Shown in pieces: positions 14,482 to 21,158 of a DNA stretch of 64,000 nucleotides. Position 1 is the first letter of the stretch. Each line of letters starts with the position of its first letter. Source of the DNA: Fodinibius salipaludis (lineage in GTDB: Bacteria > Bacteroidota > Rhodothermia > Balneolales > Balneolaceae). A program made the position numbers and the translations under genes. The notes under the pieces were generated by a model that was not told where the DNA came from, made no database searches, and saw only the letters and a list, made by a program, of their open reading frames with translations. The DNA lies in the NCBI RefSeq assembly GCF_002287075.1, contig NZ_NSKE01000008.1, forward strand, positions 62,001 to 126,000, read 5' to 3'.

Positions 14482-14486
14482 TGTGG

Positions 14487-14826
14487 TTAGCCTCCGGGCG
14501 TAGCACCACCTCTCATCAGGTAAATACCCAGCGCTACCAATACCAGTGCTAAGGCAACTTTTAGTCTTTTTACTTGAATGCGCTGGGCAATATACCAGCC
14601 CGCTGCTGTTCAAACTAATAGTGGAACTACTAAAATTCCGGCTAACGTCCAGTCTACGGCTCCCTGCAGGGCATAACCCACGGTAGCCATTCCGGAAATG
14701 AAAATGGATTGTACTGGAGCTAAGGCAACCAAGAGTAGCATGGGCGCTCCTAAAACGATTAGCAACGGAACAGCTAATACAGGCCCCAGTAATCCGCCGG
14801 GTAACCCTGACCAACTTATAGGTAAG
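14487..14826 (-). pseudogene. Broken TauE/SafE (DUF81) permease, C-terminal remnant with in-frame stop
   Basis: Translated leftwards from about 14826, the frame reads a typical C-terminal third of a sulfite exporter TauE/SafE family permease: 'GLPGGLLGPVLAVPLL', 'GAVDWTLAGILVVPLLV', then a TGA, then 'TAAGWYIAQRI' and 'ALALVLVALGIYLMRGG', ending in TAA at 14487. In relatives the position of the TGA is normally a glycine ('VGTAAG'-like), so one G-to-T change explains it. The N-terminal two thirds are absent and no start codon is visible. It lies tail-to-tail with the phosphorylase gene, with five bases between the two stop codons. Confidence 0.7.
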
Positions 14827-15029
14827 CCAGATGTAACTATTTTATAACTATACTATCTTATAAAAAAATATACGAGGAGAGTGGGGTGAACTGGATTTTT
14901 AAAATTTTTATAACATTTCTCTATCCTTTACGTAAGTTTACTCTGATACATTATTAGATAATATCAGGTATATTATAATATTGATATAATAGTAGGGCAG
15001 GGCAAAGTCTAACAAAAACCAATAATACT

Positions 15030-15818
15030 ATGTTTAAAAGATTCGTTCGTGCAATTAAGTCGCTATTCGGTGGATTCGTGAGTTCAATGGAAGATCCAAA
15101 ACTTATTTTGGAACAGAATATCCGGGATCTCAATGATCAGATTCCCCAGATGAATGAAAATATCGCTACGGTAAAGGCGAATAAGATTATGCTCCAGAAA
15201 GAGGTGAATAAGCTGGAGAAAAAGATTGATGATCTTACGGCGAAAATAAAATCAGCCATTCAGGCTGATCGTGATGATATCGCCGAAGGATATGCTATGC
15301 AGCTTGAGAAGGCCAAAGAGAATTTAGAGACTTCAAAAGAGCAGCTGAAATTTGCTGAACAGGCTTATGAAAAGGCATTGAAAGTGAAGAAGGCCTTTAT
15401 GCGTGAGAAGGACCGCAAGATCCAAGAGGCCAAAGAGGCCATGCGTGCCAGTGAAAGAGCAGAATGGCAGGGCAGAATTGCCGATGCGTTGGAACAGTTT
15501 GAAACAGGGGGAATGGATCAAACCCATGATGAGATGGTTAACCGACTCAATGAACAGACTGCTAAGAACGAAGCTCGCATGGAGCTGGCGTTAGACAGTA
15601 TCGATACTGAAACGATGGAAATTGAAGCCAATGCGGAGAAGCTACGTGCTCATGAGTTGGTAGAGCAATTTAAGTCTGAAATGGGCAAAACAACATCATC
15701 AGAAAAAGAAAAGAGTGTAGGCTCATCTGACGGTGAAGAAGAAATTGAAATTGATGAGCAGACATCTGAGAAACAACAGGATAAAACGATTGGCAATAAG
15801 GAACGATCTCAATCCTAA
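15030..15818 (+). CDS. pspA: PspA/IM30 (ESCRT-III-like) membrane-stress protein
   Basis: A 262-residue mostly helical protein starting 'MFKRFVRAIKSLFGGFVSSMEDPKLILEQNIRDL', the amphipathic helix and helix 1 of PspA/Vipp1; long coiled coils follow to about residue 210. The last 50 residues are acidic and low complexity, an extension absent from E. coli PspA. PspA-family proteins polymerise on damaged inner membrane. Two further coiled-coil genes follow (17 and 0 bp gaps), suggesting a three-gene operon. No sigma-54 promoter pattern was found in the 200-bp AT-rich upstream gap. That gap has several TATAAT-like hexamers near 14980. Confidence 0.9.
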   Translation: MFKRFVRAIKSLFGGFVSSMEDPKLILEQNIRDLNDQIPQMNENIATVKANKIMLQKEVNKLEKKIDDLTAKIKSAIQADRDDIAEGYAMQLEKAKENLETSKEQLKFAEQAYEKALKVKKAFMREKDRKIQEAKEAMRASERAEWQGRIADALEQFETGGMDQTHDEMVNRLNEQTAKNEARMELALDSIDTETMEIEANAEKLRAHELVEQFKSEMGKTTSSEKEKSVGSSDGEEEIEIDEQTSEKQQDKTIGNKERSQS

Positions 15819-15834
15819 TAAATGGTTTTGAGCC

Positions 15835-16290
15835 ATGGATGACGACAGCAGAAGTGAGCGGGAACGTCTCAAAGAAGAATACAAGGCGCACTATCGTAAG
15901 GTGCGCGAAATAAAAGAACGCGTATCACGAGCCAAACGTACACAAAATATTGCCAGTGCGCTCAAAAGCATGGATAAAACCGAGATGCTGAACTCTTTTG
16001 ATGACTTTCTTTATTCGGTGAAGCATAAGCTGGCCTCGGTCGAAGCCCGGCTTGACTTGGCCATGGATAGCCTTGCAGAGGAACATGAGGATAATGTCAG
16101 TGAACAAGAGCTGGATGAGGAGATGAGGAAATCCAAAGCGAAAGACACCTTGCGGCAAGTGAAGTTGGAAATGGGGCTCCTGTATAACGAGATCGAAGAA
16201 CAGGCAAATAATATCAAGGTAAATAAAACAATTGGCAGGGATTCAACAGCACTATCTGACAGGTCTGACAATGAACTTAAAGAGGAGTAA
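15835..16290 (+). CDS. Small charged coiled-coil protein, PspA partner candidate
   Basis: A 151-residue hydrophilic protein with no membrane segment or signal. Residues 1-35 are strongly basic/acidic coil ('SERERLKEEYKAHYRKVREI'), 45-85 contain 'MLNSFDDFLYSVKHKL' then 'EARLDLAMDSL', and the tail is acidic. I do not recognise a named family. It starts 17 bp after pspA and stops immediately before the next gene, so all three are probably co-expressed. Its helical, charged nature suggests binding to PspA or the membrane protein that follows; this is inference from context only. Confidence 0.8.
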   Translation: MDDDSRSERERLKEEYKAHYRKVREIKERVSRAKRTQNIASALKSMDKTEMLNSFDDFLYSVKHKLASVEARLDLAMDSLAEEHEDNVSEQELDEEMRKSKAKDTLRQVKLEMGLLYNEIEEQANNIKVNKTIGRDSTALSDRSDNELKEE

Positions 16291-16296
16291 GTGATT

Positions 16297-17193
16297 ATGA
16301 GTGATGATAACTCCATAAATTTTACACGCGAAGCATTTTTGCATCCCATTAATTTAGGGGTGCTGTTGGTTGCAGCTATTTCTGCTTTTGCAATGAGTGG
16401 CATGGGGCTGATATCAAGCCTGATTCTTACCATGACATTCGCTGTTGAACTTATGTACCTGGGGATTGTCCCGCGACTGCCCCGATTCCGGAAAGATGTA
16501 AAGTTAAAAAAGGTACGGGAACAAAATCCTGCCGCAAAGGAGAAATCAACATTCCAGGAGCTGGATAAAAAAAGTCAGAAACGATTTTTAGTGTTAAAGC
16601 ACCTTGCCAAACTAATAAAGGAGAATTTTGATAAGCTGCCGTACAGTTCTCAGGGATTGTTGGAAAATATCCGTGATAAGATTAAAGAACTTCTGTCCAA
16701 TTACCTTACCTTGTTGGATCTCCATAAGCGTTATCGTTTATATATGGATACCTCGGTGGAAGAAAGTTTAAAGCGAGAGGTTCAAAAAGAAGAACGTGAG
16801 ATACAAAATATGGAATCGGAGCAGTTGAAGAGAACAACAGCACGGCGCGTCGGGATTTTGAAAAAACGTCTCAAAAAATTTGAGGTGGCCAAAGAAAAGT
16901 ACTTGATCTGTGAGACGCATCTTGAAACCATAGAGGATGCTATCCGATATATTTATGAGCAATCTATGACGATGAGTAATCCCGAAGAAATTGGATTCCA
17001 GCTCGATAATCTACTTGAAGAGGTTGAGGAAACATCACAGCTTATTGATGATTTAGATAAGGATATTTTACCTTATAGTTCGGATCTTGACGATATTGAT
17101 TTGGATTCTGATTTTTTAGAAAATGAAGATGAACTAAAACAGAAAAAAGAACTCGATCCTAAAGTTGACACTTCAAATCGAGTTAAAGAATAA
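16297..17193 (+). CDS. Membrane-anchored coiled-coil protein, third gene of the PspA cluster
   Basis: A 298-residue protein. Residues about 17-57 form a hydrophobic hairpin of two helices ('LGVLLVAAISAFAMSGMG' and 'SSLILTMTFAVELMYLGI'), followed by a basic linker ('PRLPRFRKDVKLKK') and about 200 residues of predicted coiled coil, ending in an acidic tail. I do not recognise a family. It abuts the upstream gene (TAA then GTG); I prefer the ATG at 16297 over that GTG at 16291. Layout suggests an inner-membrane receptor that could recruit PspA-type polymers. Function is inferred from neighbours only. Confidence 0.8.
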   Translation: MSDDNSINFTREAFLHPINLGVLLVAAISAFAMSGMGLISSLILTMTFAVELMYLGIVPRLPRFRKDVKLKKVREQNPAAKEKSTFQELDKKSQKRFLVLKHLAKLIKENFDKLPYSSQGLLENIRDKIKELLSNYLTLLDLHKRYRLYMDTSVEESLKREVQKEEREIQNMESEQLKRTTARRVGILKKRLKKFEVAKEKYLICETHLETIEDAIRYIYEQSMTMSNPEEIGFQLDNLLEEVEETSQLIDDLDKDILPYSSDLDDIDLDSDFLENEDELKQKKELDPKVDTSNRVKE

Positions 17194-17200
17194 AGAGTTT

Positions 17201-17977
17201 ATGAGTGAATCGTTCAGTACAATTACGTTGGAAATCGATGATAGCGGCATAGCCATTGTAACTATCAATCGCCCCAAAAAGCTAAATGCTTTAAATGATG
17301 AGGTATTAAATGAGCTTGCTGATGTCTTTAAGGATATTCAAATAGATGAAGAAATAAATGCTGTGATTGTAAAAGGAGCCGGGGATAAAGCATTTGTTGC
17401 TGGAGCTGATATCAAAGAGCTTCGTGAGCTGGATAACCGATCCGGACGAATGGCTTCTCAAAAAGGACAACAGATTTTTCAACTGATCGAGGACACCCGC
17501 AAGCCGGTCATTGCTGCTGTAAACGGATATGCATTAGGCGGTGGTGCGGAGCTGGCCATGGCGTGTCACTTGCGTATAGCTGGTGAAAATGCGGTATTTG
17601 GCTTGCCGGAAGTTGGATTAGGCTTAATCCCAGGATACGGCGGAACACAGCGCTTACCCGCGTTGATCGGAAAAGCTCGAGCTTTGGAAATGATTTTAAC
17701 CGGCAAACAAGTAAAAGCCGAAGAAGCCCAACGGCTTGGGTTAGTTAACAAGGTAAGTGCAGATCCCGTAGAAGCATCAAAAGAACTGTTAAATGATATT
17801 TTAAAAAATGGTCCTATTGCTGTTAGGGATGCTATCAAGGCTGTTTATCATTCTGATAATCGTTCTGGCTACCAAGTAGAAGCGGATCTGTTTGGCGAAC
17901 TTTGTGAAACAGAAGATTGTATGGAAGGAACGTCAGCATTTCTTGAAAAGCGAAAGCCCGAGTTTAAAGGGAAATAA
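17201..17977 (+). CDS. Enoyl-CoA hydratase/isomerase family protein
   Basis: A 258-residue crotonase. Oxyanion-hole segments 'AGADIKEL' (about residue 66) and 'NGYALGGGAELAMACHLRIA' (about 107-126) are present, together with the catalytic glutamate region 'PEVGLGLIPGYGGTQRLP' near 134. These fit a 2-enoyl-CoA hydratase of fatty acid or branched-chain/crotonyl metabolism; the precise acyl-CoA is not clear. ATG at 17201 gives the usual length. A longer frame from 17165 would overlap the upstream gene and adds no conserved sequence. It begins 7 bp after the PspA cluster and could be co-transcribed. Confidence 0.92.
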   Translation: MSESFSTITLEIDDSGIAIVTINRPKKLNALNDEVLNELADVFKDIQIDEEINAVIVKGAGDKAFVAGADIKELRELDNRSGRMASQKGQQIFQLIEDTRKPVIAAVNGYALGGGAELAMACHLRIAGENAVFGLPEVGLGLIPGYGGTQRLPALIGKARALEMILTGKQVKAEEAQRLGLVNKVSADPVEASKELLNDILKNGPIAVRDAIKAVYHSDNRSGYQVEADLFGELCETEDCMEGTSAFLEKRKPEFKGK

Positions 17978-18061: not shown

Positions 18062-19336
18062 GTGACTGAATTACTCCTCATTATATTAACTATTCTTCTC
18101 AGCGGTTTCTTTTCGGGATCAGAGATTGCTTTTGTCAGTTCTAATAGACTAAAGCTGGAGATAGAGTCCCGAAAGGGTTCATGGACGGGACGTATCGTAA
18201 ATGATTTTATTCATAATCCGGAGACTTTTTTAACCACTACATTAGTCGGTAATAATGTTGTCAATGTAGTGTATGCTACCCTGATGACGATATTTTTGGT
18301 GGGGCCTATCACCGAAATTTATCAAAGCTGGATGGGGACCATGCCTTCCGAAGCGTTGGTTTTGGTAATCCAAACGGTGATTGCTTCTGTTGTAATTATG
18401 CTTTTTGGTGAAATCATCCCCAAGGCCCTATTCCGTATAAATGCTGATTGGTGGATGAAGATCATTGCGATTCCTCAAAAAGTATGCAATCAGCTATTTA
18501 AGCCACTTATCTTTATAGCTGATAAATCCTCGGATTTAATTATTAAGCTCATTAACCCAGAGGTGGATCGCTCGGGCACCGTATTTCGACGAGAAGATGT
18601 AGAGCTGATATTTCAAGAATTGCGTGATACGGGGGGGCATGATCTGGATAAAGATGATTCTGAAATTCTTCACAACGTACTTGAGCTTTCGAACAAACGC
18701 GTGAAGGAATCGATGATACCACGGACTGATATAGTGGCTGTTGAAAAAAATACCAGTATCGACGAGACGTTAAAGCTTTTTATCTCTTCGGGCTTTTCAA
18801 AGCTCCCCGTTTACCAGGAATCTATTGACGATATTATCGGGGTTATTTTTGCTTACGATCTGTTTAGTAATCCCGAAAATCTTTCTGAAATAATACGTCC
18901 TATTAAGTTGGTGCCTGCTTCACAGAAATCGAAAGATCTCTTATCGGAATTCCGCAGCTCAAATATTTCGGTAGCTATTGTTATCGATGAATATGGAGGT
19001 ACGGCCGGGATGATTACCATTGAAGATCTTTTAGAGGAAGTTGTTGGTGATATTCAGGATGAATACGATACCGAAGATCGAATCCTGAAAAAGTTATCCG
19101 GCAACAGTTATATTTTAAGTGGCGGAGTCGAGATCGAAGATCTGCTTCAAAAATTTCCCGAGATTGGTCTGCCAGAAGAATCTACTGAATATGAAACAAT
19201 AGCTGGTTATATCATCAATGAACTGGGCCGTATTCCCAAAGTGAATGAAGAGCTTTTGATCGATGGCAAAAAAGTCATCATTAGTAAAGCAACACCAAGT
19301 CGCATCGAAACTGTTAAAGTGATTGTAATGGAGTAA
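18062..19336 (+). CDS. CNNM/CBS-domain hemolysin-family membrane protein (CorC/TlyC type)
   Basis: A 424-residue protein: N-terminal DUF21 membrane module (motifs 'LLSGFFSGSEIAFVSSN', 'LVGNNVVNVVYA'), a CBS pair (about residues 210-330, 'MIPRTDIVAVEK', 'LPVYQESIDDIIGVI', 'VAIVIDEYGGTAGMITIEDLLEE') and a C-terminal CorC/HlyC transporter-associated domain. Relatives export or sense Mg2+/Co2+ and include the Bacteroidota GldE. No other gliding gene is nearby, so the general name is safer. GTG start at 18062 gives a full DUF21. Confidence 0.92.
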   Translation: MTELLLIILTILLSGFFSGSEIAFVSSNRLKLEIESRKGSWTGRIVNDFIHNPETFLTTTLVGNNVVNVVYATLMTIFLVGPITEIYQSWMGTMPSEALVLVIQTVIASVVIMLFGEIIPKALFRINADWWMKIIAIPQKVCNQLFKPLIFIADKSSDLIIKLINPEVDRSGTVFRREDVELIFQELRDTGGHDLDKDDSEILHNVLELSNKRVKESMIPRTDIVAVEKNTSIDETLKLFISSGFSKLPVYQESIDDIIGVIFAYDLFSNPENLSEIIRPIKLVPASQKSKDLLSEFRSSNISVAIVIDEYGGTAGMITIEDLLEEVVGDIQDEYDTEDRILKKLSGNSYILSGGVEIEDLLQKFPEIGLPEESTEYETIAGYIINELGRIPKVNEELLIDGKKVIISKATPSRIETVKVIVME

Positions 19337-19445: not shown

Positions 19446-21158
19446 ATGTTTGATCATTATCCCGGTTGGGCACAGGAATTTGCACAGAAATATCTCAGTC
19501 GTACCATCAATCAATTTATCCTGCATGGGAATGTGCATGATTTAGTTCCGCTTCAGCGAAAAGAGCAGTCGGATTTCGTACGGCTGAAGTCGTTCTTGTC
19601 AGAAGAGTTTTTCGGCGCGCGTGATTATGTCATTTTCTATGATCGGTCGTCAGGTATTTATTTCAGGGATGGGGAGTCAAAAAAAGATTTCAATAGAGCT
19701 CTTTCGGGACGTGATTCCTTGCTGGGAACCGATTGCGCTAATAAAATGCCCAAAGATCCGGTGCGCGTTTTTTCGCTGCTGGAACAGTATTTTCGCGTAC
19801 GCATCGATGATAAAAAGAGCATTGCCCTGATTATTGATTATGCGAATACCATCGTGCCGATGAACGAAGCCGGTGCCAGTGGATCAGAAGATCGTACGTC
19901 GATGGTGTATCTTTCGCGATGGGCGCATGACCCCATGTTTTTAGCGGCGGATTTTACCACGGTGTTGCTTACCGAAAATCTGGCAGATCTGAATAAAACG
20001 CTGGTACAAAATCCCTATACAACGGATATCAAAATTAATATTCCTGATGAACAGCAGCGCCGGCAGTTTATTGATTTTGAGTCTTCAGGTGAAGAATTTC
20101 AGGCGTTTTCTGAGGTTAGTGAGAAAGTAGTAGTCCAGCAAACGGCGGGACTCAATTTTATCAATCTCCGTAGTATTCTTTCCAATGCTCGGGAGAATAA
20201 AGAGAAAATAACCCACGATCGGCTATCTGAAGCAAAAAAGGAATTGATCGAAGCCGAGGCATACGGACTGCTTGAATTTGTAGAGACAGAATATACGCTT
20301 GATGATGTTGCAGGACATACGAAAGTAAAAGAGCATCTTCGTCATGCCGTGCAGGCACTTAAAAGTGGCCGGCAGGATGTACTCCCCATGGGGTATTTGG
20401 TTTGTGGACCAGTGGGAACAGGTAAAACGTTTTTGGTGACTTGTTTTGCAAGTGAGGTAGGTATCCCAATGGTGAAATTGAAAAATTTTCGCAGTCAATG
20501 GCAGGGCGTGACCGAAGGAAACTTGGAAAAAATTCTTGGGATTCTCAAAGCGATGTCCCCCGTGGCAGTGATGATTGATGAAGCCGATGCCTATCTTGGC
20601 GATCGCGATGCCAGCGGAGACAGTGGTGTTTCCAGCCGCGTTTTTTCGCAGATTGCCACCTTTATGAGCGACACCCGAAATCGCGGTGAAATCATCTGGT
20701 TTTTAATGACTGCGCGTCCCGATTTGATGCCGGTGGATCTCAAACGCCAGGGCCGAGCCGAAGAGCACCTGGCGTTGTTCCCACCTCATACCAAAGAAGA
20801 ACGGGTAGAACTTTTTAATGCGATGAAAAAGAAAACAGGTCTGCAGCTTACCGAAGAATACACACCACAGGTTATTGAGCAGGGGTTAAAAACCTTCTCG
20901 GGTGCAGATATGGAAGCAGCTCTTACTCGAGCAAAATTCCGAGCAGCTGCACAGGATCTCGACGAAGTAACGCCTGAAATTTTGGATTTGGCACTCAACG
21001 ATTTTCTTCCACCCACCTATCCGGAGGAAATCGAGCTCCAAACGCTCAGTGCCGTTATTGAATGTACCTCCAAAGAATTGCTACCCGAGCGATACCAAGA
21101 AATGGATCGTGGGGAAATTCTTAGCAAGATCGAAGAATTAAAGTATCGGATCGGTTAA
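19446..21158 (+). CDS. AAA-family ATPase with degenerate N-terminal AAA-like module
   Basis: A 570-residue protein. The C-terminal AAA module has Walker A 'CGPVGTGKTFLV' (about 320), Walker B 'VAVMIDEADAYLGD' (about 374), and an arginine-finger region 'RDASGDSGVSSRVFSQ', then 'DLKRQGRAEEHLALFPP' and a C-terminal lid. Residues 1-270 look like a second AAA-like fold without Walker motifs ('FILHGNVHDLVP', 'ALIIDYANTIVP', 'TVLLTENLADL'), as in some tandem AAA proteins where the first half is inactive. No protease or transmembrane domain is attached. Partner unknown; it lies about 2.2 kb past the PspA cluster. Confidence 0.85.
   Translation: MFDHYPGWAQEFAQKYLSRTINQFILHGNVHDLVPLQRKEQSDFVRLKSFLSEEFFGARDYVIFYDRSSGIYFRDGESKKDFNRALSGRDSLLGTDCANKMPKDPVRVFSLLEQYFRVRIDDKKSIALIIDYANTIVPMNEAGASGSEDRTSMVYLSRWAHDPMFLAADFTTVLLTENLADLNKTLVQNPYTTDIKINIPDEQQRRQFIDFESSGEEFQAFSEVSEKVVVQQTAGLNFINLRSILSNARENKEKITHDRLSEAKKELIEAEAYGLLEFVETEYTLDDVAGHTKVKEHLRHAVQALKSGRQDVLPMGYLVCGPVGTGKTFLVTCFASEVGIPMVKLKNFRSQWQGVTEGNLEKILGILKAMSPVAVMIDEADAYLGDRDASGDSGVSSRVFSQIATFMSDTRNRGEIIWFLMTARPDLMPVDLKRQGRAEEHLALFPPHTKEERVELFNAMKKKTGLQLTEEYTPQVIEQGLKTFSGADMEAALTRAKFRAAAQDLDEVTPEILDLALNDFLPPTYPEEIELQTLSAVIECTSKELLPERYQEMDRGEILSKIEELKYRIG

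Follow-up and report, generated by a model that had tools for sequence, protein, structure and literature searches.

A class-specific PspA operon with a half-PspA and a membrane-hairpin protein in Fodinibius salipaludis and its relatives

Systems built around PspA, a bacterial ESCRT-III protein, are distinguished by the proteins that accompany it. The pspFABC and lia operons combine PspA with membrane partners, mycobacteria possess the set ClgR-PspA-PspM-PspN, and in Bacteroidota, according to the passages available of PMC9239133, pspA has band 7 proteins as neighbours and a PspC end is conserved; these passages make no mention of Rhodotherm- or Balneol-. Those of PMC10936438 likewise do not mention Bacteroid-, Rhodotherm-, Balneol- or Salinibacter, and PspM and PspN have no homologues outside Actinobacteria according to the relevant passage of Ravi et al. 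(PMC11237479). In this article, we describe three adjacent genes in a stretch of 64,000 nucleotides of Fodinibius salipaludis (contig NZ_NSKE01000008.1, positions 62,001 to 126,000 of the forward strand; hereafter the window), which encode a PspA, a short coiled-coil protein (P2) and a membrane-anchored protein (P3) and are referred to together as the trio. Like the pspFABC and lia operons, the trio unites PspA with membrane partners; unlike these and the band 7 systems, it has partners, P2 and P3, that match none of the families PspB, PspC, PspF, LiaF and band 7, and it is set apart from the mycobacterial PspM (Rv2743c) by the published distribution of the latter, not by a sequence comparison. 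It is a real, conserved and class-specific variant of the PspA system, and the preliminary description was right to see in it a distinct Psp architecture, since this operon occurs class-wide and is unlike pspFABC, lia and clgR-pspA-pspM.

A trio of this kind has already been published in outline, and the view of the preliminary description that the partners are undescribed is to that extent not supported: in one sentence on Bacteroidetes (CBH24266.1), Ravi et al. (2024; PMC11237479) group PspA and Snf7 with a third neighbouring gene, whose product is a coiled-coil protein resembling PspA. This neighbourhood is similar to the trio in that PspA lies beside a gene for a PspA-like coiled-coil protein and differs from it in that one gene is named Snf7. 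The Snf7/ESCRT-III family PF03357 is not among the best 25 of 40 families matched by P2 nor among the best 25 of 32 matched by P3. We take CBH accessions to denote Salinibacter ruber and its genus to belong to the class studied here, and the neighbourhood is probably the same locus as present in Salinibacter. A class-wide census, the boundary of the half-PspA, the shared tail motif and the membrane hairpin appear neither in the passages of that paper on the neighbourhood nor in the other literature passages covered, supplements excepted in both cases, and the matches listed in literature searches on PspA in genera of the class include no paper devoted to this locus. What is new is that the middle gene encodes half a PspA with the same tail peptide as PspA itself.

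According to the reading of the open reading frames (ORFs), the trio consists of three genes arranged head to tail on the forward strand: pspA (15030-15818; 262 residues), which encodes a divergent, class-specific form of the PspA/IM30 family with helices 0-5, P2 (15835-16290; a coil of 151 residues, the half-PspA) and P3 (16297-17193; 298 residues, a membrane hairpin followed by a cytosolic helical bundle). The preliminary description had already placed a pspA, a 151-residue coil and a 298-residue protein with two transmembrane helices side by side; the gap between the first two is 16 nt rather than the 17 given there, whereas its value of at most 6 nt for the second gap stands (0-6 nt). P3 may start at GTG 16291 or at ATG 16297, of which the latter gives the 298-residue protein and corresponds to the start in many relatives, with the pattern MS..(I)N(Y/F)T(K/R)EAF.

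For the census, 117 genomes of the class, to which we give the name Rhodothermia/Balneolia, were compared with 149 other genomes of the same phylum; the loci read, 116 fetched ones and the window, cover 116 of the 117 class genomes. PspA is present in 116 and P3 in 115 of the 117, and in 114 P3 comes immediately after PspA and on its strand, with P2 in between in 105 and without it in nine. In genome G232 PspA and P3 lie at the ends of two different contigs, the one with PspA also carrying P2 at its end, G237 has PspA alone without P3, and G251 lacks both. The order of stop codons is PspA>P2>P3 on one strand in all 105 complete trio loci, and for each of the two gene pairs the genes overlap or are separated by at most 40 bp in 85 of the 105. 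Linkage is far above chance, and the possibility raised at the outset that the genes might be unlinked in relatives falls away. Outside the class, P3 was found in none of the 149 genomes by a single-sequence search and a profile search, and PspA_IM30 was matched in 33 of them, above the family cut-off in 29. The single-sequence search for P2 missed three class genomes of the family f9, in whose loci P2 was later found, and its lone, weak match outside the class (G087, E 1.4e-4) is probably a chance coil; in the nine genomes with a P2-less locus, the only whole-genome profile matches of P2 sit inside pspA, and none lies elsewhere. The closest named P3 relatives, among the 80 of 172 relatives that were retained and named, are uncultured Aliifodinibius and Fodinibius species, whose family we take to be Balneolaceae, and P3-bearing close relatives include Fodinibius halophilus, F. 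roseus, Gracilimonas amylolytica and Rhodohalobacter halophilus.

The PspA of the window scores 61.5 bits against PF04012 (cut-off 33.9), with residues 2-204 covering profile positions 3-206 of 220, and only 26.5 bits against the classical PspA equivalog TIGR02977, for which the NCBIfam cut-off is 242.95. It is the single PspA_IM30 match in its genome, and positions 1-218 of the class PspA profile align with residues 2-216 of Vipp1 (sll0617; E 1e-5). The extra acidic tail noticed earlier is indeed there: it starts after about residue 220, is poorly alignable and has, in 114 of the 116 class PspAs, a median of 35 residues with 24% D+E and 16% K+R. Four loci with wrong predicted starts (L070, L072, L088 and L089) were left out of the PspA alignment (A3). 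As side observations, two PspC-domain matches are present in the window's genome on contigs other than that of pspA (G000:C1:538665 and G000:C36:246831), and one class genome contains a second PspA (G220:C4:3889858-3890544) whose PF04012 score of 172 bits is well above that of the divergent copy.

Judged by profile comparison, P2 is a truncated PspA paralogue that comprises the C-terminal half with helices 3-5. Its residues 17-117 align colinearly with PspA 125-222 (hhalign 99.3%, E 2.9e-20; reversed-profile controls 0.1-0.6%), its profile matches that of the 28 out-of-class PspAs (28 of 29 loci gave a protein) with 82.8% and E 9e-6 (reversed profiles 0.1-1.7%), and searches with P2 also match the neighbouring pspA, with reciprocal phmmer matches down to 4e-12. 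Helix 0 and the polymer hairpin of helices 1 and 2 are absent; P2 does not comprise the full PF04012 domain, and this family is missing from the four Pfam families listed, with E values of up to 1, for the P2 of the window. In the PspA of Synechocystis, hinge 1 between helices 2 and 3 spans residues 128-133 (PMC11746142, available passages), and the homology begins close to it, at PspA 125. An EARLD-like stretch of helix 4 is recognizable by a crude pattern in 92 of 105 P2 proteins. The alignment of P2 (A2) has 39 rows; the loci L086 and L087 have no P2. The preliminary description had counted P2 and P3 as two undescribed coiled-coil partners, which for P3 agrees with the lack of a convincing family and for P2 has to be replaced by its descent from PspA. 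P2 by itself also has no convincing Pfam or NCBIfam family. Weak matches of single P2 or P3 members, for example to DUF745 (2e-4) and DUF5928 (9e-4), resemble chance and were set aside. Of the AlphaFold models proposed earlier, that of P3 has a hairpin and a bundle (see below) and that of P2 two long helices (mean pLDDT 79, pTM 0.30); Foldseek found no match with the P2 model.

The tails of PspA and P2 both carry the motif K[TS][IVL]G, and in many cases the next residue is basic. In the window it reads KTIG in both proteins, at residues 252-255 of PspA (15783-15794, forward strand), starting 11 residues from the end, and at residues 131-134 of P2 (16225-16236, forward strand), where K131 is invariant in alignment A2. 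Counted with the pattern [KR][ST][ILVM]G over the final 50 and 70 residues, 95 of 105 trios have it in PspA and P2 alike, and all 105 have it in one or both; of the 116 class PspAs, 105 carry it among their last 20 residues, and in 100 it starts 8-12 residues from the end. As background, the last 50 residues of 54 mechanically picked ORFs of the window contain it in just two, which are PspA and P2; none of the 145 ORFs that represent six neighbouring genes in the window and in relatives has it, nor do the tails of the 28 out-of-class PspAs. The shared motif reads as a putative docking peptide. Many of the out-of-class PspAs (L263-L291) share another recurring tail, approximately [DE]LLxLKxxMGxLP. 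Many P3 C-termini (L062-L101) also end in a short basic stretch, for example SRVKE or TRTRE, and several PspAs lacking KTIG retain an R-x-R end that resembles these basic ends, a likeness that may be fortuitous. The idea that P2 compensates for a missing PspA motif was given up: in all eight trio loci with a motif-less PspA the motif occurs twice in P2, yet eight other trios have both the PspA motif and the doubling, and the tree, with three changes in the PspA motif and six in the P2 doubling, contains only one or two independent pairs, so that the idea has no statistical weight.

P3 has a hydrophobic stretch at about residues 13-60, with 19-residue Kyte-Doolittle means of up to 2.07, followed by the basic segment RLPRFRKDVKLKK. 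In the AlphaFold model (mean pLDDT 76), helices 17-32 and 37-60, joined by a short turn, precede a helical bundle that ends near residue 257, beyond which the tail is modelled with low confidence; the stretch and the predicted helices bear out the two-helix membrane hairpin originally proposed for the third protein. Glu51, within the second predicted transmembrane helix, is identical in all 114 rows with a residue at this position; an acid buried there could respond to the proton-motive force or be in contact with lipid. Neither Pfam nor NCBIfam has a convincing family for P3 (two Pfam and five NCBIfam rows at E up to 1), and the partner families PspB, PspC, LiaF and toastrack are not among the Pfam and NCBIfam matches of the window P3 at E up to 1. 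Of PspB, PspC, PspF and LiaF, none was matched in Pfam or NCBIfam by either partner of PspA, as the preliminary description had supposed. Against the 28 out-of-class PspAs the P3 profile reached 0.4%. A BAR fold is not claimed, the VIA-align rows being a mix of helical proteins that includes designed bundles and BAR domains, with the best Z of 12.2 (rmsd 2.8, 112 aligned) inside the uninformative range of the tool for helical models. A P3 loop was considered as P2 site: Q119 and G120 are lost in the P2-less families f5 and f42 and kept in the P2-less f46. This idea was dropped because four of the 12 sites lost in each are shared, among 62 conserved ones, and about two would be expected by our own arithmetic. 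The P3 alignment (A1) leaves out L076 (G104, in-frame TAA) and L100 (G065, two frames), where P3 is broken through degeneration or sequencing error. In locus L248 (G258:C178:3028-4763), two tandem P3-like matches follow pspA and P2, the second being more distant (163 bits).

We regard it as an even proposition that the trio is a class-specific PspA operon in which PspA furnishes the polymer, P2 a cap or adaptor and P3 the receptor. PspA would build a membrane-bound polymer. In the rod of Synechocystis PspA, fixed contacts link helix 5, and likewise helix 2+3, to the hairpin of a neighbour (available passages of PMC11746142), and P2 would accordingly hold one side of each contact. Having kept the subunit surfaces of helices 3-5 and having neither helix 0, for membrane insertion, nor the hairpin that accepts the next subunit, P2 would be expected to attach to a PspA polymer, terminally or laterally, without propagating it; because it would bind a PspA subunit and offer no hairpin to the next, it could serve as cap, length regulator or adaptor. 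P3 would be held in the inner membrane by its hairpin and recruit PspA and P2 to it through the cytosolic bundle, a role comparable to that of the membrane partners PspB/PspC, LiaI and PspM elsewhere. We infer that the three proteins form a complex, in which the tails that PspA and P2 share, with their K[TS][IVL]G motif, would be a common docking peptide for one putative receptor.

Several results weigh against this proposal. P2 is missing from nine of the 114 PspA-P3 loci, corresponding to three changes on the tree, and is therefore not essential. In many Rhodothermia its helix 5 has an eroded end (a crude pattern recognizes a K.EMG-like end in 59 of 105), and a cap that docks through helix 5 can therefore not be universal; the precise contact may vary. 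P3 has no similarity to class PspA (4.3%) or P2 (0.4%) in profile comparisons, and neither Foldseek (no match at E <= 0.001) nor VIA-align gave an informative fold match for its model. The scans for sigma-54-like promoters (20 matches against a shuffle mean of 27, that is, fewer than in the shuffles) and sigma-70-like sites (12 against 14.3, no excess) identified no stress-responsive promoter. Finally, in the 10-kb loci of relatives the flanking genes are conserved too, with a homologue of the downstream enoyl-CoA hydratase (ECH) in 35 of 40 and thymidine phosphorylase in most, so that part of the linkage is general synteny.

P2 could instead be a second polymer subunit that assembles with PspA into a composite coat, P3 providing the membrane platform; we consider this rather unlikely. 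P2 retains helix 4 and the tail motif, co-polymers of ESCRT-III offer a precedent, and adjacent PspA paralogues, for which a composite coat was proposed, have been described in cyanobacteria (PMC11237479, in the passages available). However, the wall of the PspA rod is formed by a four-helix core (PMC11746142, likewise in part), of which P2 lacks the portion made up of helices 1 and 2, and the P2-less loci hold PspA and P3 all the same.

Another reading involves a Cdc48-type AAA ATPase (19446-21158, forward strand), a speculative candidate remodeller of PspA and P2, which starts 2.3 kb downstream of P3, beyond the genes for ECH and a CNNM/CorC-type protein. It would read the tail motif and extract or thread PspA and P2 subunits as in ESCRT-III/Vps4, which we judge improbable. 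The eukaryotic and archaeal ESCRT-III systems with Vps4 likewise have paralogous subunits that share short C-terminal peptides, the MIM tails offering a possible comparison for those of PspA and P2, of which one is here shortened; they differ in that the AAA protein showed no MIT domain and its link to the trio is correlative. The protein retains GPVGTGKT, IDEAD and the pore-loop-like SQWQG, and its distribution is restricted to the class: it was found in 112 of 117 class genomes, and orthologues are present in 49 of 49 class genomes as compared with none of the 149 others, in which AAA matches reach 5.7e-21 at best. All 112 AAA-bearing class genomes have the tail motif, and of the five without AAA four have no motif either (G255, G260, G237 and G251, the last without PspA altogether), the fifth, G256, being a fragmentary genome (92% complete) in which the motif is kept and the AAA missing. 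This co-loss, however, comes down to about two or three independent events, and G237 and G251 have lost P3 too. The gene is near the trio only within the order of the window, separated from it by the ECH and CNNM genes; in 19 relatives that do not belong to this order (L079-L097), the 10-kb trio loci contain no AAA. Its N-terminal part matched no Pfam family in four members, hence no MIT domain. Ravi et al. describe for some bacterial clades a protein associated with PspA in which the first of two AAA domains, at the N-terminal side, is inactive (PMC11237479, passage available); a degenerate AAA domain in the N-terminal half of the present protein was not confirmed (hhalign 0.2-0.4%, no Pfam match). 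The AAA protein is a lead, not a finding, its link to the PspA and P2 tails being correlative, and a self-contained ESCRT-III/Vps4-like machine with PspA, a capping P2, the receptor P3 and AAA recycling via the KTIG tails appears equally doubtful. That thymidine phosphorylase, PspA, P2, P3, ECH and CNNM are mere syntenic housekeeping neighbours without joint function is very improbable despite the conserved flanks, as the trio stays intact in 10-kb loci where these change (L079-L082 without a thymidine phosphorylase homologue, L092-L096 without an ECH homologue), short gaps and overlaps dominate, and P2 derives from PspA and has the same tail motif.

Among the neighbours, the ECH gene (17201-17977, forward strand; Pfam ECH_1, 5e-67) is syntenic and possibly belongs to the transcription unit of the trio, though it is no part of a Psp system; the CNNM/CorC-type gene begins downstream of it at 18062 on the same strand. 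Between thymidine phosphorylase and pspA, positions 14482-14870 of the reverse strand encode in translation a hydrophobic permease-like fragment with in-frame stops, by its look possibly a TauE/SafE-type remnant.

With regard to the class-specific operon of PspA, P2 and P3, the two partner proteins represent a small, testable set of candidates for the starting, capping, membrane-holding and disassembly of bacterial PspA polymers. The trio is carried by a mostly salt-loving group of bacteria, and its composition suggests a way in which PspA filaments may be capped, docked and recycled.
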